In this document: piece by piece, positions 9,400 through 17,643 of the stretch
Numbering within the stretch: the first letter of the stretch is position 1
Layout: each line of letters starts with the position of its first letter
From: Massilia sp.
GTDB taxonomy: Bacteria; Pseudomonadota; Gammaproteobacteria; Burkholderiales; Burkholderiaceae_D
DNA length: 34,077 nt
Assembly (NCBI GenBank): GCA_025359245.1
Contig: JANYGW010000107.1
Location: forward strand, 1 to 34,077
Reading direction: 5' to 3'
Made by a program: the position numbers and the translations under genes
Notes under the pieces: model-generated
Seen by the model: the letters and a program-made list of their open reading frames with translations, nothing else
What the model was told of the DNA's origin: nothing
Databases searched by the model: none

Positions 9400-10323
9400 C
9401 TAGTCGTGCGCTTCCGGCTGCAAGGTCACATGGTCGATGCCATGCCGCTCCAGCAGCATCGCATTGACCGAGGCCAGCACCGCCGGCCACTCCGCCAGGC
9501 TGCCGATTTCCAGGTGGCCGATCAGGGCCGGCTGGCCCGGCGACATATCCCACACATGCAAGTCATGCACCGACAGCACGCCCGGCATGTGCGCCAGGTC
9601 TTCGCCCACTTTCAGGTAGTCGATCGCATGCGGCACGCCTTCCATCAATGAATGGTAGGACTCGCGCAGGATCGCGACGGTGGTCTTGAGGATCAGCAGC
9701 GACACCAGCACCGACAGCAGAGGGTCGATCTGCATCCAGCCGGTCAGGTAGATGACGGCGCCGGCGGCCAGCGCAGCGAGCGATCCGAGCAGGTCGCCCA
9801 TGACATTGATCAGCGCGGCGCGCGTGTTCAGGCTGCCCTGGTCGCGCGAGAGCAGCCAGGCCACGCCGAGGTTGATCATCAGGCCGGCGGCAGCCACGAT
9901 AAAGACGATTGCGCCTTGCACGTGACTGGGCGCGGTAAAACGCTGCACCGCTTCGTACAAGATCCATGCCACCACCGCCAGCATGGCCAGGCCGTTGACG
10001 AAAGCGGCCAGCGCCTCGGCGCGGCCGAAGCCGAACGAGTGGCGCGCCGACGGCGGGCGCTTGGCGATCAGTTGCGCCAGCAAGGCCAGGCCGAGCGAGG
10101 CGGCGTCGGTCACGACGTGGCCGGCGTCCGATATCAGCGCCAGCGAATTGGAGCTGACGCCGGCGATCACTTCAACGACGGCAAGGCAGAGCGTGAGCAC
10201 CAGCGCGAAGATCAGCGTGTTCTGGCTGCGTTCTTCGGCCACGTGCAAATGCTTGGCATCGCCCTCGTGGTGGGCATGTAAATGGGCGGAGGGGGAGGGT
10301 GGTATATTTGATGGCATGGGCAA
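9400..10323 (-). CDS. Cation diffusion facilitator metal exporter (ZitB/CzcD type)
   Basis: 307-residue CDF protein, a proton-coupled antiporter that exports Zn(II) or related metals from the cytoplasm. The His-rich N-terminus (HLHAHHE...HLH) is typical of ZitB/CzcD forms. About six transmembrane helices follow, from 35 to 205, then a cytoplasmic domain with HDLHVWDMSPGQPALIGHL. The TM2 site reads HVVTD (His69, Asp73). In TM5 the expected HxxxD reads NVMGD (Asn173, Asp177), where close relatives as I remember them have His; this may change metal choice. Start at ATG 10323; a second ATG two codons later is possible. Substrate Zn is inferred from the family only. Confidence 0.85.
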   Translation of the reverse strand: MPMPSNIPPSPSAHLHAHHEGDAKHLHVAEERSQNTLIFALVLTLCLAVVEVIAGVSSNSLALISDAGHVVTDAASLGLALLAQLIAKRPPSARHSFGFGRAEALAAFVNGLAMLAVVAWILYEAVQRFTAPSHVQGAIVFIVAAAGLMINLGVAWLLSRDQGSLNTRAALINVMGDLLGSLAALAAGAVIYLTGWMQIDPLLSVLVSLLILKTTVAILRESYHSLMEGVPHAIDYLKVGEDLAHMPGVLSVHDLHVWDMSPGQPALIGHLEIGSLAEWPAVLASVNAMLLERHGIDHVTLQPEAHD

Positions 10324-10369
10324 AGTGTAATAGATTTCTTGGTGCTAAAAGAAGGCGTAAAAAAAGCCC

Positions 10370-10398
10370 TTGTTTTTATCGGAACGCCTCTCTATAAT
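10370..10398 (+). promoter_or_regulatory. Near-consensus sigma-70 promoter of tRNA-Val/thrS
   Basis: TTGTTT at 10370-10375 and a perfect TATAAT at 10393-10398, 17 bases apart, with the tRNA 5' end 11 bases after the -10 box. No other clear promoter is seen before thrS, so it probably also feeds the thrS leader. Confidence 0.8.
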
Positions 10399-10408
10399 GC
10401 TGGTCTTC

Positions 10409-10485
10409 GGGCGGTTAGTTCAGCTGGTTAGAATACTTGGTCGACATCCAAGGGGTCGGGGATTCGAATTCCTCACCGCCCACCA
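10409..10485 (+). tRNA. tRNA-Val (anticodon GAC)
   Basis: 77-base cloverleaf with encoded CCA: acceptor GGGCGGT/ACCGCCC, D-stem GTTC/GAAT, anticodon stem CTTGG/CCAAG with loop TCGACAT (anticodon GAC at 10443-10445), five-base variable region, T-stem GGGGA/TCCTC, discriminator A. All stems pair apart from G-U at 10-25 and 50-64. Two universal features are off: position 33 is C instead of U, and the 53-61 pair is A-U instead of G-C. The D-arm and variable region look like bacterial tRNA-Asp. Position upstream of thrS is, from memory, usual in betaproteobacteria, and the promoter is strong, so I take it as functional. Confidence 0.9.
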
Positions 10486-10519
10486 GACAAGCAGTAAAAG
10501 TAAGAGTGAGAAAGGCATC

Positions 10520-10567
10520 ATGGTTATGACACCGCGAACTACGACGGAGTTGTTCCAGCGGCACTAG
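10520..10567 (+). CDS. Threonine-rich leader peptide of thrS
   Basis: 15-codon ORF MVMTPRTTTELFQRH, with GAAAGG just upstream (10510-10515); the ATG at 10526 gives better spacing. Four of the codons are Thr, three in a row (ACT ACG ACG, 10538-10546). It lies 34 bases after the tRNA and is followed by a terminator and thrS. The stop codon TAG (10565-10567) sits inside CTAGTCG, a segment complementary to the terminator's left arm. That is the arrangement of an amino-acid attenuator leader peptide, here sensing charged tRNA-Thr. Inferred from layout; no homologue is recalled. Confidence 0.65.
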   Translation: MVMTPRTTTELFQRH

Positions 10568-10612
10568 TCGAGGTGATTCCTTTTGCTCTACGAAAAAGAA
10601 AAACGCGGCTAG
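10564..10612 (+). promoter_or_regulatory. Candidate antiterminator pairing in the thrS leader
   Basis: CTAGTCG (10564-10570) can pair over 7 bp, with one G-U, with CGGCTAG (10606-10612). This uses part of the terminator's left arm and its loop, so it excludes the terminator. A ribosome stalled at the Thr codons leaves 10564-10570 free; one that reaches the stop codon covers it. Confidence 0.5.
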
Positions 10613-10626
10613 CCCGCGTTTTTTTT
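10601..10626 (+). terminator. Intrinsic terminator/attenuator before thrS
   Basis: AAACGCGG (10601-10608), loop CTAGC, CCGCGTTT (10614-10621), then more T up to 10626. A-rich sequence on the left lengthens the stem with A-U pairs. A second CCGCG followed by T's (10630-10639) could pair with the same left arm. It lies between the leader ORF and thrS, so unless it is relieved most transcripts should stop here. Confidence 0.8.
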
Positions 10627-10676
10627 CGTCCGCGTTTTTGTTTTAAACTAGTCAGTCTTATGTTCAGGAGAACAGC

Positions 10677-12584
10677 ATGGTTTCAGTCCGACTTCCCGAT
10701 GGTTCCGAGCGCCAGTTCGATGGTCCAGTCACCGTAGCCCAGGTTGCTGCCAGCATCGGCACCGGCCTGGCCAAGGCGGCCCTGGCCGGCAAGGTCGACG
10801 GCAAGGTGGTCGATACCTCCTTCCTGATCGAGCAGAACGCCGAACTGGCCATCATCACCGACAAGGATCCGGAAGGGCTGGACGTGATCCGCCACTCGAC
10901 CGCGCACTTGCTGGCGTACGCGGTCAAGGAGCTGTTCCCTGAAGCGCAAGTGACGATCGGCCCGGTGATCGAGAATGGCTTCTTCTACGATTTTTCGTAC
11001 AAGCGTCCGTTCACGCCGGAAGACCTGGTGGCGATCGAAAAGAAGATGAACGAGCTGGCCAAGAAAGATGAAAAAGTCACGCGCTCCGTGATGCCGCGCG
11101 ATGAGGCAGTGGCCTACTTCAAGTCGATCGGCGAAAACTACAAGGCCGAGATCATCGCCTCGATTCCGGCCGGCGAAGACGTGTCGCTGTATGCCGAAGG
11201 CGCGTTCACCGACTTGTGCCGCGGCCCGCACGTGCCGTCGATCGGCAAGCTCAAAGTGTTCAAGCTGATGAAGGTGGCCGGCGCGTACTGGCGCGGCGAC
11301 TCGAAGAACGAAATGCTGACCCGCATCTACGGCACGGCCTGGGCCAAGAAGGAAGACCAGGAGCTGTACCTGCACAACCTGGAAGAGGCGGAAAAGCGCG
11401 ACCACCGCAAGCTCGGCAAGCAGCTCGACTTCTTCCACTTCCAGGAAGAGGCGCCGGGCCTGGTGTTCTGGCATCCGAAGGGCTGGACCATCTGGCAGCA
11501 GGTGGAACAGTACATGCGCCACAAGTACCAGGTCAACGGCTACCAGGAAGTGAAGGCGCCGCAAATTCTCGATAGCAGCCTGTGGGGCAAGACCGGGCAC
11601 TGGGAGAACTACCGCGAGAACATGTTCGTCACCGAGTCGGAAAACCGTTCGTACGCGCTGAAGCCGATGAATTGCCCGGGCCACGTGCAAATCTTTAACA
11701 GCAATATGCGCAGCTACCGCGACCTGCCGCTGCGCTACGGCGAGTTTGGCCAGTGCCACCGCAACGAGCCGTCCGGCGCGCTGCACGGCATCATGCGCGT
11801 GCGCGGCTTCACGCAGGATGATGGCCACATCTTCTGCACCGATGAGCAGATCGAGCCGGAAGTGGTGGCCTTCCACACGCAGGCGATGGAGGTGTATGCC
11901 GATTTCCACTTCGAGAATATCGACGTCAAACTGGCGCTGCGTCCGGACAACCGGATTGGCACCGACGAAGTATGGGACAAGGCCGAGGAAGCCTTGCGCT
12001 CCGGCCTGCGCGCCTGTGGCGTGACATGGACCGAGCTGCCCGGCGAAGGCGCGTTCTACGGCCCGAAAATCGAATACCACCTGAAGGACAGCCTTGGCCG
12101 TCCATGGCAGGTCGGCACCATGCAGGTCGACTTCTTCATGCCGGAACGCTTGGGCGCCGAATACGTGGCGATGGATAATTCGCGCCAGGTGCCGGTCATG
12201 CTGCACCGTGCGATCGTCGGTTCGCTCGAGCGCTTCATCGGCATCCTGATCGAAAACTACGCCGGCGCCTTGCCGCTGTGGCTGGCGCCGGTGCAGGTGG
12301 CGGTGCTGAATATCTCGGATGCGCAGGCCGATTACGCCAAGGAAGTGACGGCGCGGCTGGGTAAATTGGGCTACCGCGTTCAAGCCGATTTGCGGAATGA
12401 GAAGATTACCTATAAAATACGCGAACATTCCGTCCAAAAACTGCCGTATATCCTTGTGATAGGCGACAAAGAGCGGGATGCCAACACTGTGGCCGTGCGC
12501 GCACGAGGCAATGTCGAATTGGGAACCATGTCCATCGATGCCCTCGTGGAACGTCTGAAACTCGAGATCGATTCCAAGGCTTGA
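10677..12584 (+). CDS. thrS: Threonine-tRNA ligase
   Basis: 635-residue class II synthetase that charges tRNA-Thr. Order: TGS domain (1-60), editing domain with HSTAH (His73, His77) and the DLCRGPH Cys/His pair near 180, catalytic core with motif 2 around [15 protein letters not shown], and motif 3 with SLERFIGIL, then an anticodon-binding domain (about 535-635). Catalytic zinc ligands are present: Cys in MNCPGHV, His in DDGHIFC and His in VMLHRAI. Normal length. ATG 10677 has AGGAG at 10666-10670. It follows the attenuator-like leader and is followed after 51 bases, with no terminator, by infC, so the two are probably co-transcribed. Confidence 0.97.
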
Positions 12585-12635: not shown

Positions 12636-13157
12636 ATAGCTACTGACAAGTCACATCGCATCAATGGCGAAATCACCGCCCCCGAAATGCGTTTATCCGG
12701 GGTGGAAAACGAGCCGCTTGGCATTGTGAGCCTGGCTGAGGCTTTTCGTCTGGCCGAAGAAGCGAACGTCGACCTGGTGGAGATTGCGCCAACCGCGCAG
12801 CCACCGGTTTGCCGCTTGATGGACTACGGCAAATTCAAGTATTCGGAGCAGAAAAAGGCCCACGAAGCGAAATTGAAGCAGAAGATCATCCTCGTGAAGG
12901 AAGTCAAATTCCGTCCGGGTACCGATGATGGCGACTACAATATCAAGCTGCGTAACCTGATCAAGTTCCTCGACGAAGGTGACAAAACCAAGATTACGCT
13001 GCGTTTCCGCGGCCGTGAGATGGCCCACCAGGATATCGGATTCCGGATGCTCGAACGCCTGAAGGCAGACCTGGAGCCATACGGCCAGGTCGAGCAGTTC
13101 CCGAAGATGGAAGGTCGCCAGATGATCATGATACTGTCGCCGAAGAAAAAGAAGTAA
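12636..13157 (+). CDS. infC: Translation initiation factor IF-3
   Basis: 173 residues from the ATA codon at 12636 (initiator, then [19 protein letters not shown]). IF-3 binds the 30S subunit, checks the start codon and keeps the subunits apart. The N-domain runs to about residue 85 ([20 protein letters not shown]), then the Lys-rich linker and the C-domain ([20 protein letters not shown]...[22 protein letters not shown]). A start at the first ATG (12687) would cut off the conserved HRINGEI region. AAAAGGA at 12623-12629 is well placed for ATA. Rare AUU/AUA/AUC starts allow IF-3 to repress its own translation. Follows thrS in the usual order. Confidence 0.93.
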
Positions 13158-13176
13158 AAGCGTATCATATTGACAG

Positions 13177-13285
13177 CGAGGGGTCAGACCCCGGTGTTTC
13201 AGTTAGGGGTCTGACCCCGATTTGCAGCCAGCGGCTCTAAATCGGGGTCAGGCCCCCAACGGAACCACCGGGGTCTGACCCCTCG
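13177..13285. repeat. Nested palindromic repeat with four GGGGTCWGACCCC units
   Basis: Four near-identical palindromic 13-mers are at 13180-13192, 13206-13218, 13244-13256 (one mismatch) and 13270-13282. The outer two are embedded in perfect 20-base inverted arms (13177-13196 and 13266-13285); the inner two in 18-base arms with one mismatch (13206-13223 and 13239-13256). The whole can fold into one nested stem. GGGGTC-GACCCC is a known dispersed palindrome in many proteobacteria. It lies just after infC and widens the infC-rpmI gap to 329 bases, which also holds a terminator, a promoter and a structured leader. Confidence 0.85.
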
Positions 13286-13290
13286 GCTTT

Positions 13291-13320
13291 GGCCCTTCAA
13301 GTAAGGGCAATGCAAGGGCC
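13291..13320 (+). other. Alternative stems before the infC/rpmI terminator
   Basis: GGCCCTT at 13291-13297 can pair with AAGGGC at 13303-13308 or with AAGGGCC at 13314-13320. The second pairing removes the left arm of the terminator that follows, so the region has the form of a terminator/antiterminator switch. Confidence 0.35.
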
Positions 13321-13346
13321 GATGGGTTTTCTCATCGGCCTTTGTC
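13314..13346 (+). terminator. Intrinsic terminator after infC
   Basis: GGCCGATG (13317-13324) pairs with CATCGGCC (13333-13340) over an eight-base loop, followed by TTTGTCATTT. It separates thrS-infC from rpmI-rplT. Confidence 0.75.
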
Positions 13347-13372
13347 ATTTCTACGAGGATTTGTGTTAAAAT
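13342..13372 (+). promoter_or_regulatory. Promoter of rpmI-rplT
   Basis: TTGTCA (13342-13347), and TAAAAT (13367-13372) preceded by TG in the extended -10 position. The spacer is long at 19 bases, which the extended -10 can compensate. The -35 box lies in the T-tail of the infC terminator. Confidence 0.6.
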
Positions 13373-13464
13373 CTTCGGCTTCGCTCCGCAAGGAACGAAG
13401 ACCAATGTGAAAGCAGGCATCTAAGCGCAGCGCGTTGCTGCCACCTGCAATCCTGCTACTGGAG

Positions 13465-13479
13465 CTGTCCCAAGGACAG
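13465..13479 (+). promoter_or_regulatory. Hairpin covering the rpmI ribosome binding site
   Basis: CTGTCC (13465-13470) and GGACAG (13474-13479) form a 6-bp stem with loop CAA. The AAGGA ribosome binding site (13472-13476) lies in the loop and right arm, so the stem would block initiation at ATG 13487. Repression of this operon by L20 on its leader is known in other bacteria; whether it binds here is inference. Confidence 0.45.
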
Positions 13480-13486
13480 AACTACT

Positions 13487-13684
13487 ATGCCTAAAATGAA
13501 GACCAAAAGCTCCGCGAAGAAGCGTTTTCGCGTGCGTCCAGGTGGAACCGTCAAAGCGGGTCACGCTTTCAAGCGCCACATCCTGACCAAGAAGACCACC
13601 AAGAGCAAGCGCCAGTTGCGCGGAATCACGAACGTCGACGCTGCGGATGTACGTTCCGTCATGCGTATGATGCCGTCTGCTTAA
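13487..13684 (+). CDS. rpmI: 50S ribosomal protein L35
   Basis: 65-residue basic protein, the usual L35 length: [20 protein letters not shown] start, then [18 protein letters not shown] and a C-terminal [10 protein letters not shown]35 is part of the large ribosomal subunit. ATG 13487 lies after a structured leader with the ribosome binding site in a hairpin. rplT follows after 27 bases with its own AAGGAG. The two genes appear to be transcribed from the promoter at 13342-13372. Confidence 0.97.
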
Positions 13685-13711
13685 TCTCACCACTCAATTT
13701 AAGGAGTTACT

Positions 13712-14071
13712 ATGCCTAGAGTAAAACGTGGGGTTACAGCTCGTGCCCGTCATAAGAAAATTCTTGTTCAAGCTAAAGGCTACCGTGGTCGCCGCAGCAA
13801 GGTATACCGCGTTGCCAAGCAAGCAGTCATGCGCGCTGGCCAATACGCTTACCGCGATCGCCGCAACAAGAAGCGCGTCTTCCGCCGCCTGTGGATCGCC
13901 CGTATCAACGCCGCTGCACGTCAGCATGGCGTGACGTACAGCGTGTTCATGAACGGTCTGAAGAAAGCATCGATCGAACTGGACCGTAAAGTCCTGGCCG
14001 ATATGGCTGTGATGGACAAGCCGGCGTTCGCCGCGATTGTCGCCGCAGTAAAGGCAAAGATCGCTGCGTAA
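13712..14071 (+). CDS. rplT: 50S ribosomal protein L20
   Basis: 119 residues, full length. [18 protein letters not shown] at the N-terminus and the [21 protein letters not shown] segment are diagnostic. L20 binds 23S rRNA early in assembly and in some bacteria also represses its own operon at the rpmI leader. AAGGAG lies before ATG 13712. The gene is followed by two stem-loops, the second a clear intrinsic terminator at 14114-14146. Confidence 0.97.
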
Positions 14072-14089
14072 GCATTGATCATTGTTAGC

Positions 14090-14105
14090 GCCGCCCCAGG
14101 GCGGC
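14090..14105 (+). other. Stem-loop downstream of rplT
   Basis: GCCGCC (14090-14095) and GGCGGC (14100-14105) with a four-base loop. No T-run follows, so it may stabilise the 3' end of the rpmI-rplT mRNA. Confidence 0.5.
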
Positions 14106-14113
14106 TCGAGAAG

Positions 14114-14146
14114 CGGGGCAGAGGTTCAAACCTGTGCCCCGTTTTT
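14114..14146 (+). terminator. Intrinsic terminator between rplT and pheS
   Basis: CGGGGCA (14114-14120) pairs with TGCCCCG (14135-14141), the inner GAGGTT/ACCT part can pair too, and TTTTT follows (14142-14146). I find no Phe-rich leader ORF in front of it, so it looks like a plain terminator rather than a pheST attenuator. Confidence 0.8.
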
Positions 14147-14175
14147 GATTGTGGCGCGTGTGCGCCATCTATTAA
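14145..14175 (+). promoter_or_regulatory. Possible pheST promoter with a palindrome in the spacer
   Basis: TTGATT (14145-14150) with TCTATT 17 bases or TATTAA 19 bases downstream. The spacer is filled by TGGCGC GTGT GCGCCA (14152-14167), a perfect 6-bp inverted repeat. It could be an operator or a further RNA stem. Confidence 0.35.
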
Positions 14176-14185
14176 CGGAATCCGC

Positions 14186-15202
14186 ATGAACTCCCTCGAA
14201 GAACTCGTCGTCTCGGCCCAGGCTGACTTTGTCGCCGCCGAAGACGCTGCCGCACTCGAAAACGCCAAAGCCAAGTACCTTGGCAAGACCGGCCAGATTA
14301 CCGAGCAAATGAAGGGCCTGGGCAAACTCGACCCGGACCAGAAAAAAATCCAGGGCGCGCTGATCAACGCGGCCAAGGTGCAGATCGAAACCGCACTGAC
14401 GGCCCGGCGCGATGCGCTGGCCAACGCGCAGCTCGAGGCCCGCCTGAACGCCGAGGCGATCGACGTCACGCTGCCGGGGCGCGGGCGCGCGATGGGCGGC
14501 ATCCACCCGGTGATGCGTACCTGGGAACGGGTCGAAGAGATCTTCCGCTCGATCGGCTTCGATGTCGCCGACGGCCCTGAAATCGAAACCGACTGGACCA
14601 ATTTCACGGCGCTCAACAGCCCGGAAAACCACCCTGCCCGCTCAATGCAGGACACCTTCTACATCGAAGGCAACGACAGCACCGGAAAGCCTTTGCTGCT
14701 GCGCACCCACACCAGCCCGATGCAGGTGCGCTACGCGCGCACCCACACGCCGCCGATCAAGGTGATCGCGCCGGGCCGTACCTACCGCGTCGACAGCGAT
14801 GCGACGCACTCGCCGATGTTCCACCAGGTCGAAGGCCTGTGGATCGCCGAGGACATTTCGTTCGCCGACCTGAAGGGCGTCTACCTCGCCTTCGTCAAGG
14901 CCTTCTTTGAAACCGACGACCTGCAGGTGCGCTTCCGTCCGTCGTATTTCCCGTTCACGGAGCCGTCCGCCGAGATCGACATCGCGTTCGGCAGCGGCCC
15001 CTTGAAAGGGCGCTGGCTGGAAGTGTCGGGCGCCGGCCAGGTACATCCGACGGTGGTCAAAAACTTCGGCCTCGATCCTGAAAAGTTCATCGGCTTCGCG
15101 TTCGGCTCCGGCCTCGAGCGCCTGACCATGCTGCGCTACGGGATCAACGACCTGCGCCTGTTCTACGAAGGCGATCTGCGCTTCCTGAAGCAATTTAACT
15201 AA
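14186..15202 (+). CDS. pheS: Phenylalanine-tRNA ligase alpha subunit
   Basis: 338 residues from ATG 14186; an in-frame upstream extension would run back through the terminator and is rejected. The alpha subunit carries the class II catalytic core of the alpha2beta2 enzyme. N-terminal coiled coil (about 1-90), then [25 protein letters not shown], motif 2 with FHQVEGLWI, and motif 3 [18 protein letters not shown] with GDLRFLKQF at the end. pheT follows after 14 bases with GAGGT as ribosome binding site, so the two form an operon. Confidence 0.97.
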
Positions 15203-15216
15203 TTCGAGGTCTACAC

Positions 15217-17643
15217 ATGCAATTCTCTGAAAATTGGCTCCGTACGATGGTCGATCCGAAGATGACTTCGGATGAACTGGCTCACCTGCTGACGATGTCC
15301 GGCCTGGAAGTCGAAGAAGTCGAAGCCGTCGCGCCGCCGTTTTCGAACGTGGTGGTCGCGGAAGTGCTGGAAGTGGTGCGCCATCCGAACGCGGACCGCC
15401 TGAACGTCTGCAAGGTCAATGTCGGCACCGGCACCTTGCTCAACATCGTGTGCGGCGCGCCGAATGTGCGGGTCGGCATGAAGGCCATCTGCGCGATGGC
15501 CGGCGCGATCCTGCCGCCTGGCGCGGACGGCAAGCCGTTCGTGATCAAGGTCGGCGAGCTGCGCGGCGTCGAGTCGCAGGGCATGATGTGCTCGGCCAAG
15601 GAACTGAAGATCTCGGAAGAGAGCAATGGCCTGATGGAGCTGCCGTCGGACGCGCAGGTGGGCCAGAATATCCGCGATTACCTGGCGCTGAACGACCTCA
15701 AATTCACCATCAAGCTCACCCCCAACAAGGCCGATTGCCTGTCGGTGCTGGGCGTGGCGCGCGAAGTGTCGGCGCTGACCGGCACTCCGTTGCTGATGCC
15801 GCAGTTCCGCAGCGTGCCCGTCAACGGCAGTGAAACGCTGCCCGTCAAGATCAGCGCACCGGACCTGTGCGGACGTTTTTCGGGACGCGTGATCCGCGGC
15901 CTGAATGCGCGCGCCGAAACCCCGGCCTGGATGCGCCAGCGCCTCGAGCGCAGCGGCCAGCGGCCGGTGTCGGCGCTGGTCGACATCTCCAACTACGTGA
16001 TGCTGGAGCTGGGCCGTCCGTCGCATGTGTTCGACCTTGCCAAGATCCACGGCGGGCTCGATATCCGCTGGGGCAAGAAGGGCGAAACGCTCAAGCTGTT
16101 GAACGGCACGACCATCGAGATCGATGAATTTTTCGGCGTCATCGCCGACGACAAGGAAATCGAATCACTGGCCGGCATCATGGGCGGCGATTCGACCGCG
16201 GTCACGCTCGACACCGACAGCATCTACCTGGAAGTGGCGTTCTGGTGGCCGAACGCGATCCAGGGCCGCGCGCGGCGCCTCAATTTCTCGACCGATGCGG
16301 CGCACCGCTTCGAGCGCGGGGTCGACTTCGCCACCACGGTCGAACACATCGAGCGCATCACCGCGCTGATCGTCGAAATCTGCGGCACCACGCACACCCT
16401 GGTCGGCCCGGTTGACGACCACGTGGTCAACCTGCCCAAGCGCGACCCGGTGCAGCTGCGCACGGCGCGCGCCCAGAGGGTCATCGGCGTGCCGGTCACC
16501 GACGCCATGGTGGCCGACATTTTCACGCGCCTGGCGCTGCCGTTCACGCAGCAACCCGGCCTGTTCGCGGTCACGTCGCCGTCCTACCGTTTCGATATCG
16601 AGATCGAGGAAGACCTGATCGAGGAAGTGGCGCGCGTGTACGGCTTCGAGAACATCCCGGCGCTGCCGCCGGTGGCCGCCAGCCAGATCATCCTGGCGCC
16701 CGAGAATACCCGTTCGCTGTTCGCCGTGCGCCACCAGTTGGCCGACCTGGGTTACCAGGAAGTGGTCAACATGAGCTTTGTCGAAGCGCAGTGGGAAACC
16801 GATTTTTCGGCCAATACCGACCAGATCAAGCTGCAGAACCCGATCGCCAGCCAGATGAACGTGATGCGCTCGTCGCTGATCGGCAGCCTGGTGGCCAATG
16901 TGCGCTACAACCTGAACCGCAAGGCGGGCAGGGTGCGCGCGTTTGAAGTGGGCGCCGTCTTCAAGCGCAACCCGGCGGCCGCGGACGGTCCGCTGTCGGT
17001 GGCCGGTTTCGACCAGCCGAAACGGGTCGGCGGCGTCGCCTACGGTCCGGCCCAGGACGAGCAATGGGCGTTGCCGACGCGCGCGGTCGATTATTTTGAC
17101 GTCAAGGCCGATGTCGAAGCGATGTTCGCGCCGCGCATGCTGCGCTTCGTCAAAACGGCCCATCCGGGCCTGCATCCGGGCCGTTCGGCCGCGATTCTGC
17201 TCGACGGCGTGGAGATCGGCTTCCTCGGCGAACTGCATCCGCGCTGGCTGCAGAAGTACGACCTGCCGCAGGCGCCGGTGCTGTTCGAGGTTGATGCGGT
17301 TGCCTTGCAACAACGTCTGGTGCCCCATTATAATGAGATTTCCAAGTTCCCCGGCGCCACGCGCGACCTGGCGCTGGTGGTCAAACAGGACGTGGCGGCG
17401 CAGGATCTGGTCGATGCATTTAATACTGAACTGCAATTAAATCCTGCTGGAAAGATTGTGCAAGCCATTGTTTTGTTTGATGAATATCGGGGAAAAGGAT
17501 TGGAAGCGGACGAAAAAAGCCTTGCTTTCCGCTTTAGCTTGCAAGATACTCAAACTACCTTGCAGGACGATCAAGTCGATGCCGTGATGGCAGCGCTGAT
17601 CGAGGCGGCGAGCAAGCAACTTGACGCAAAACCGCGTTCATAA
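15217..17643 (+). CDS. pheT: Phenylalanine-tRNA ligase beta subunit
   Basis: 808 residues, normal for the bacterial beta subunit. Order: N-terminal tRNA-binding (EMAP II-like) domain about 40-155 ([23 protein letters not shown]), B3/B4 editing domain about 210-370, B5 domain about 400-475, catalytic-like core, and the C-terminal FDX-ACB anticodon-binding domain from about 715 ([18 protein letters not shown]). It removes Tyr mischarged on tRNA-Phe and completes the alpha2beta2 enzyme. ihfA follows after 51 bases with no terminator, the order seen in many proteobacteria. Confidence 0.97.

Follow-up and report, generated by a model that had tools for sequence, protein, structure and literature searches.

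A putative ribosome-mediated threonine attenuator between tRNA-Val and thrS in Massilia and other Burkholderiales

The textbook control of thrS, the gene for threonine--tRNA ligase (ThrRS), is exerted by a translational operator to which ThrRS itself binds. A 2010 study by Lopatovskaya et al. is said to deal with attenuators of aminoacyl-tRNA operons, and it may contain the prediction that we set out below. A threonine leader peptide in front of thrS has been reported for the thrL-thrS pair of Streptomyces lividans; there, the peptide MKRVRPFLETTPGFVPAR, which carries two threonine residues, precedes thrS on a leaderless transcript, and a clear intrinsic terminator was not found (PMC8079986). 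Within the searched open-licence full-text literature, this is the one threonine leader before thrS that we located. The passages of PMC2965389, PMC1262725, PMC2864571, PMC4833913 and PMC10272879 returned by term look-ups contain no thrS leader, and those of PMC2864571 include a Burkholderiales-1 motif.

Here, we analyze a window of 34,077 nucleotides, the whole stretch of DNA under study, from contig JANYGW010000107.1 of a Massilia sp. A short open reading frame rich in threonine codons and an intrinsic terminator are located between tRNA-Val and thrS in this window. In our assessment, a ribosome-mediated transcription attenuator of the classical kind very probably controls thrS and perhaps infC-rpmI-rplT-pheST as well.

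The leader open reading frame at the thrS locus and among relatives

The gene for tRNA-Val (GAC) at positions 10409–10485 of the plus strand, on which all features described here lie unless noted otherwise, was found with ARAGORN and scores 59.8 bits with the Rfam tRNA model. It is preceded by a putative promoter, TTGTTT-17 nt-TATAAT (10370–10398), that could serve a common transcript of tRNA-Val, leader and thrS. A gene for a cation diffusion facilitator family transporter (9400–10323, minus strand) is oriented divergently from this unit. Downstream of the tRNA, a Shine-Dalgarno sequence, GAAAGG (10510–10515), which is conserved in the leader alignment and paired in the ribosome-free fold, precedes the leader open reading frame MTPRTTTELFQRH* (10526–10567). 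Its 13 codons and the stop read ATG ACA CCG CGA ACT ACG ACG GAG TTG TTC CAG CGG CAC TAG, with Thr2 encoded by ACA (10529–10531) and the presumed control codons Thr5-Thr7 by ACT ACG ACG (10538–10546); the latter stand out by the conservation of their threonine and by the scan of stall positions described below. The presumed regulated gene, thrS, occupies 10677–12584 (NCBIfam TIGR00418, 712 bits), and 3' of it follow infC, rpmI, rplT, pheS and pheT (12687–17643; NCBIfam), which possibly share an operon with thrS.

A preliminary description of this DNA had the leader open reading frame begin at 10520 and span 15 codons. The frame is real, but the in-frame ATG at 10520 is missing in many relatives, which have CGGTTATG there, and the conserved ATG at 10526 is therefore the likelier start. 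The threonine codons, the terminator and a 7-bp pairing of CTAGTCG (10564–10570) with CGGCTAG (10606–10612) lie where that description had placed them, except that the terminator, given there as 10601–10626, begins with its stem at 10599.

In the following, the family is the Oxalobacteraceae and the order the Burkholderiales, labels that were taken from named relatives. We collected 110 thrS loci, 30 of them from 145 same-family genomes and 80 from named public contigs; the thrS search matched 145 of the 145 family genomes, in some cases weakly and to other synthetases. Ninety of the 110 upstream regions, a few of these 90 being identical, contain an open reading frame whose core is ATG-ACA-CCG-CGA-AC or closely similar to it, and its named carriers include Massilia, Duganella, Janthinobacterium, Herbaspirillum, Undibacterium, Paraburkholderia, Caballeronia, Burkholderia and Cupriavidus. 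A sequence-only search model built from 48 leaders, mostly of Oxalobacteraceae, matched, within the family, 113 of 141 genomes (103 of 124 if the good ones alone are counted), each with a single match, and all 113 matches are located on the thrS strand, 91–218 nt 5' of the thrS match. Among 300 order genomes, a sample that includes family members, the model matched 46; 30 of these were fetched, and thrS was the next gene in 30 of 30 (23 by script, 7 by eye). No match to the model was obtained in 28 of the 141 family and 254 of the 300 order genomes. The core 16-mer TTATGACACCGCGAAC occurs in 34 of the 300 order genomes and in 15 of 398 sampled phylum genomes, all 15 inside the order (33 order members sampled), and its exact sequence was found in none of the 365 sampled phylum genomes from outside the order. 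As model and 16-mer match only part of the order genomes, the element is patchily distributed within the order.

We added 63 genomes chosen for their missing matches, mostly one per family: 13 from the family that lack a model match and 50 from the order that lack a 16-mer match, four of the latter with weak model matches. Sixty-two of them yielded 63 thrS loci and 62 usable regions; the thrS start was set some bases off in many of these loci, which hardly affects the counts. By eye, many of the 63 upstream regions show no leader. In several of them, for example L178, L182, L202 and L218, a terminator-like hairpin comes immediately after tRNA-Val and thrS after the hairpin, again by eye and with no leader open reading frame in between, and such an arrangement suggests that the attenuator may derive from a tRNA terminator.

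An ATG-initiated open reading frame with at least three threonines in five codons is found on the coding strand of 78 of the 90 leader regions, on the reverse complement of 2 of the 90 and in 0.6% of dinucleotide shuffles; these regions were selected by their MTPRT-like core, and the 78 of 90 describes them and is not an unbiased survey. The less biased figure for conservation, 113 of 141, is the one obtained by searching whole genomes with the model, which comes mostly from the same family. Codon 5 specifies threonine in all 65 non-redundant leaders, of which 44 are of the Oxalobacteraceae type and 21 are others. In the former group, threonine is also present at codon 6 in 37 leaders and at codon 7 in 37, and codon 6 is written as ACA (14), ACG (9), ACC (7) or ACT (7), a usage indicating that selection maintains threonine at this codon while the third base drifts. 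The 21 other leaders have threonine at codon 5 in 21, at codon 6 in 5 and at codon 7 in 17; in Paraburkholderia and its relatives, the leader is mostly MTPRTLTETTSERR or close to it. The preliminary description had made conservation in relatives one of its tests, and both the open reading frame and its threonine codons are conserved.

Diverged leaders extend this picture. Open reading frames with at least four threonines in five codons are present in 6 of the 62 added regions, in none on the reverse strand and in 0.0% of shuffles. Threonine-rich frames among the added regions include MMRAFRTTTTTLLG at L161, MFKRTTTTRISR at L177, MIMQLNRTTTTS at L181 and, read from an inner start, MAVRTTTTHP at L180, and threonine runs of up to TTTTT recur in these four. 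Counts at a threshold of at least three threonines are poor evidence in the 62 regions (12 forward versus 5 reverse with ATG starts; 13 versus 17 once GTG and TTG starts are added), and the cut at four (6 versus 0) is the clearer one. Some distant leaders hold just Thr2 and Thr5, as in MTPRTFLLKR and, by eye, in MTPRTCFFLR and MTPRTWMRRLSMG. One of the six regions with at least four threonines, L216 (G175:C5), belongs to a second thrS of its genome (58% identical), which is preceded by a very threonine-rich and different leader open reading frame, MQQGLQSAHLAARFIVTTTTTTSTAT, with hairpin-forming repeats and no U tract seen.

Competing RNA structures and ribosome position

Folding yields three mutually competing structures. 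A long imperfect hairpin of the ribosome-free, untranslated leader (region 1:region 2; 10500–10591), delineated by folding and partner permutation, contains the Shine-Dalgarno sequence and the start codon and is predicted to block the antiterminator when the ribosome is absent. In the antiterminator hairpin (10564–10612; folding and swap test), RNA at the stop codon of the leader pairs with the loop and the 5' arm of the terminator, and the 7-bp pairing mentioned above forms its outer helix. The intrinsic terminator (10599–10626) has the stem AAAAACGCGG(CTAGC)CCGCGTTTTT at 10599–10623, with arms at 10599–10608 and 10614–10623 around a loop at 10609–10613, and its U tract extends from 10619 to 10626. 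A terminator is present after 90 of the 90 leaders, and its stems show compensating changes across leaders (for example CGCGG/CCGCG, CGCGC/GCGCG, GCACGG/CCGTGC). The distance from the leader stop to the terminator stem is 20–67 nt, except for 117 nt at L006 and L038. These two loci are copies of one sequence from Massilia eurypsychrophila in which about 85 nt are inserted between the leader stop and the terminator; the insertion, which by eye contains inverted repeats, is a natural disruption of the attenuator. In a further locus (L002), the 5' region of thrS between terminator and gene is taken up by a TTTTTGTTTGTCC-like repeat, present in about nine near-identical copies.

In the antiterminator, most Oxalobacteraceae pair GCTAGTCG with CGGCTAGT, one Massilia-type group pairs GCTAGACGCG with CGCGCCTGGT, and the partners are TCGAGG/CCTCGA in Paraburkholderia and its relatives and CGAGGT/GCCTTG in Cupriavidus; judged by these sequences, the partners co-vary between clades. 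The best complementary stretch begins between -6 and +5 from the end of the stop codon in 61 of 65 native leaders and in 26.6% of shuffles, and its strength exceeds that of shuffles moderately (a median of 15% of shuffles reach the native value; 6 of 65 leaders at 5% or less). When partners were swapped among all 65 leaders, 0 of 2000 permutations reached the native mean for either stem; within the Oxalobacteraceae, 0 of 2000 did so for the first stem and 1 of 2000 for the antiterminator, and among the non-Oxalobacteraceae 11 of 2000 and a marginal 93 of 2000, respectively, all of these statistics being inflated by the relatedness of the sequences. The partners of both stems change together, as the preliminary description had proposed to check. 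Relative to shuffles, the untranslated-leader hairpin is moderately more stable (mean z -1.58), and the antiterminator region is hardly so (mean z -0.30; 1 of 65 below -2). Consensus folding with RNAalifold on MAFFT alignments was weak and gave few pairs, perhaps because the stems shift register between clades; this column-based procedure was replaced by the swap tests and by partition functions of the individual sequences.

To follow the effect of the ribosome, we folded the unoccupied RNA on its 3' side as it exists prior to synthesis of the 3' arm of the terminator. Pairing between upstream RNA and the 5' arm plus loop of the terminator averages 0.30 in the absence of a ribosome, 0.81 when one is stalled at the threonine codons and 0.35 when it stands at the stop codon, and the corresponding values for the window are 0.28, 0.78 and 0.06. 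Dinucleotide-shuffled leaders placed before the same terminators gave 0.56, 0.52 and 0.44. A clear switch, in which the stall value exceeds both others by 0.3, is predicted for 32 of 65 native leaders versus 3% of shuffled ones (0–6% per run). When the stall is moved along the leader, antiterminator pairing is high for A-site codons 2–9 and drops from codon 10–11 in the Oxalobacteraceae and from codon 11 in the others. Threonine codons occupy positions 2 and 5–10, stall positions that still permit the antiterminator, and threonine amounts to 0–7% from codon 11 on. At equilibrium, pairing of the complete terminator is 0.99 without a ribosome, 0.76 when the ribosome is stalled and 0.99 when it has reached the stop. 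The 21 non-Oxalobacteraceae leaders give 0.99 in each of these states, the stalled ribosome included. The antiterminator side is the more stable one in 9 of 65 leaders and is not so in the window (-13.5 versus -16.6). Since the complete terminator is favored at equilibrium, control would have to be kinetic. Taken together, sequence and computation show the open reading frame, the conservation of its threonine codons, the alternative stems with their co-variation and a predicted dependence on the position of the ribosome.

Proposed mechanism and rival explanations

The conservation of the open reading frame and its threonine codons, together with the stem partners that change in concert, supports the leader-peptide attenuation proposed in the preliminary description, and we envisage it as follows. 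RNA polymerase would start at the tRNA-Val promoter and transcribe the tRNA and the 13-codon leader. With ample Thr-tRNA, the translating ribosome would reach the stop codon and cover 10564–10570, and the terminator would form. When Thr-tRNA is scarce, the ribosome would stall at threonine codons 2 and 5–7 and leave 10564–10570 free; this segment could then base-pair with the terminator at its 5' arm and loop, thereby allowing read-through into thrS. In the absence of a ribosome, the long hairpin would hide both the Shine-Dalgarno sequence and 10564–10570, and the terminator would again form. We infer that the leader is translated in a manner coupled to transcription, that it responds to Thr-tRNA and that the tRNA promoter is used. 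If read-through extends downstream, threonine supply would also set the levels of IF-3, L35, L20 and PheST.

The promoter of tRNA-Val probably drives leader and thrS. tRNA-Val(GAC) is the nearest upstream tRNA at 72 of the 90 leader loci, and the 73 loci with an upstream tRNA (one of them tRNA-Ser) have a median gap of 49 nt. At the other 17, an upstream tRNA is missing within 800 nt or up to the contig end. Twelve tRNA-less loci were inspected, and five of them (L025, L026, L058, L061, L087) have an exact TATAAT ending 51–90 nt before the leader ATG, a count made by inspection without chance control; the others have weaker hexamers. At L022, the 3' half of tRNA-Val is found about 80 nt upstream of the leader behind TATAGT, apparently the remnant of a tRNA deletion that spared the promoter.

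It could be argued that the terminator is merely that of tRNA-Val, that the promoter of thrS lies downstream of it and that the short open reading frame is incidental. The Burkholderiales loci with a hairpin directly after tRNA-Val and no leader would fit such a view, which we nevertheless consider improbable: threonine is kept despite synonymous variation, a switch governed by ribosome position is rare in shuffles, and four of the loci without a tRNA in 800 nt (L025, L026, L058 and L061) still possess TATAAT, leader and terminator. A stricter consensus promoter scan also found no promoter in 10200–10720, though it left TTGTTT-17-TATAAT before the tRNA unreported as well. Only a small share of probability falls, in our view, to a leader that senses general translation stress, or a specific stall at the nascent chain or the CGA codon, instead of threonine supply. 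The recurrent threonine runs of the diverged leaders and the fact that the downstream gene encodes the threonine enzyme are at odds with this idea, to which those distant members lend some weight that keep only M-T-P-R-T and CGA and have lost further threonines.

The bases of GTTATGACACCGCGAAC are near-invariant across many genera, as would be expected of a binding site for ThrRS, another protein or a trans-acting RNA in place of a translated leader; such a site is very unlikely, given that codon 6 interchanges all four threonine codons and that searches for known elements speak against it. Thirty genomes from other orders of the same class were examined, and 17 of them have, at most 75 nt before thrS, a hairpin that combines an NGU loop with a CCACT tail and that we take to match the E. 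coli thrS operator; by eye, this strict pattern misses some look-alike hairpins among the 30. None of 173 Burkholderiales regions (90 + 20 + 63, a few duplicates included) contains it, and an NGU-loop hairpin lacking the CCACT tail occurs in 10 of them. ATG-initiated open reading frames with three threonines in five codons are present in 2 of the 30 genomes of other orders, in 1 on the reverse strand and in 1.3% of shuffles. Like the E. coli-type operator, the T-box and the known Rfam leaders were looked for with a negative result: the T-box covariance model has no match up to E 10 in 10380–10690, and Rfam Thr_leader, the leader of the E. coli thr operon, has none in the window or six relatives. 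At gathering score, tRNA is the sole Rfam family in these six relatives, and a search of the whole window listed nothing, not even the tRNA seen in the scan of 10380–10690. The attenuator remains our preferred reading by far.

The CGA codon before Thr5 and comparison with known systems

Decoding of CGA is slow and proceeds via inosine-adenine wobble. In the codon pair CGA-ACT (Arg4-Thr5; 10535–10540), the arginine codon is near-invariant, being CGA in 89 of 90 leaders; in 80 thrS genes, CGA makes up 141 of 3310 arginine codons (4.3%). Among 17 diverged leaders of the R-T or Thr type, picked by eye among the 63 added regions, CGA precedes the first threonine in 13, and the codon before it varies freely; three more threonine-bearing candidates (L206, L211, L216) are without CGA. 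Base pairing was considered as the reason for the fixed codon and judged insufficient, since the third base of CGA is paired less (mean 0.25) than any other position between -6 and +23 of the ribosome-free fold. Its pairing is below 0.3 in 65% of the 65 leaders and above 0.7 in 14%, and it exceeds 0.9 in 5 of 13 diverged leaders. A further idea is that CGAAC might pair with the T loop of the upstream tRNA.

We tentatively propose that the Burkholderiales swapped the operator by which ThrRS binds its mRNA for an attenuator on the tRNA-Val transcript, and that its sensor is tuned by the CGA before the first threonine of the run, a scenario that we regard as possible and rather doubtful in its entirety. 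The inosine-adenine wobble of the arginine tRNA in the P-site would slow decoding of the next codon and make the leader hypersensitive to scarce Thr-tRNA. If true, the sensor would be set by a codon pair and not by the number of control codons, and it would become understandable that CGA-ACN persists in distant leaders, even in those with just two threonines. The near-invariant CGA affords a precise prediction on codon context and ribosome stalling.

A different principle than the textbook operator appears to control thrS in a large order, so one can ask how the feedback loop changed its sensor. Like the E. coli thrS operator, the Massilia locus would place thrS under feedback; in E. coli, the ribosome binding site carries an anticodon-like hairpin to which ThrRS binds, whereas no such hairpin is found here. 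The T-box of Gram-positive thrS would resemble the Massilia locus in sensing the charging of tRNA-Thr and in acting through a terminator, and it differs in that there is no T-box match here and the ribosome would do the sensing. Closely related in design are the pheST (pheM) attenuator of enterobacteria and the classical attenuators of trp, his and thr biosynthesis (background: PMC1183508): they share a leader open reading frame with the relevant codons, mutually exclusive antiterminator and terminator, and ribosome position as the switch. Unlike in these systems, the target is thrS, a near-invariant CGA precedes Thr5, and the leader is mostly situated behind tRNA-Val with a promoter that is probably shared. 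S. lividans thrL has the threonine leader before thrS in common with this locus and bears no sequence resemblance to it by eye (PMC8079986). Because this weaker threonine leader has been reported, the kind is already known, and the distinct solution suggested in the preliminary description is to be narrowed to what is otherwise new as far as we have searched: the family of leaders in the Burkholderiales, the contrast of operator and attenuator, and the near-invariant rare CGA before Thr5.
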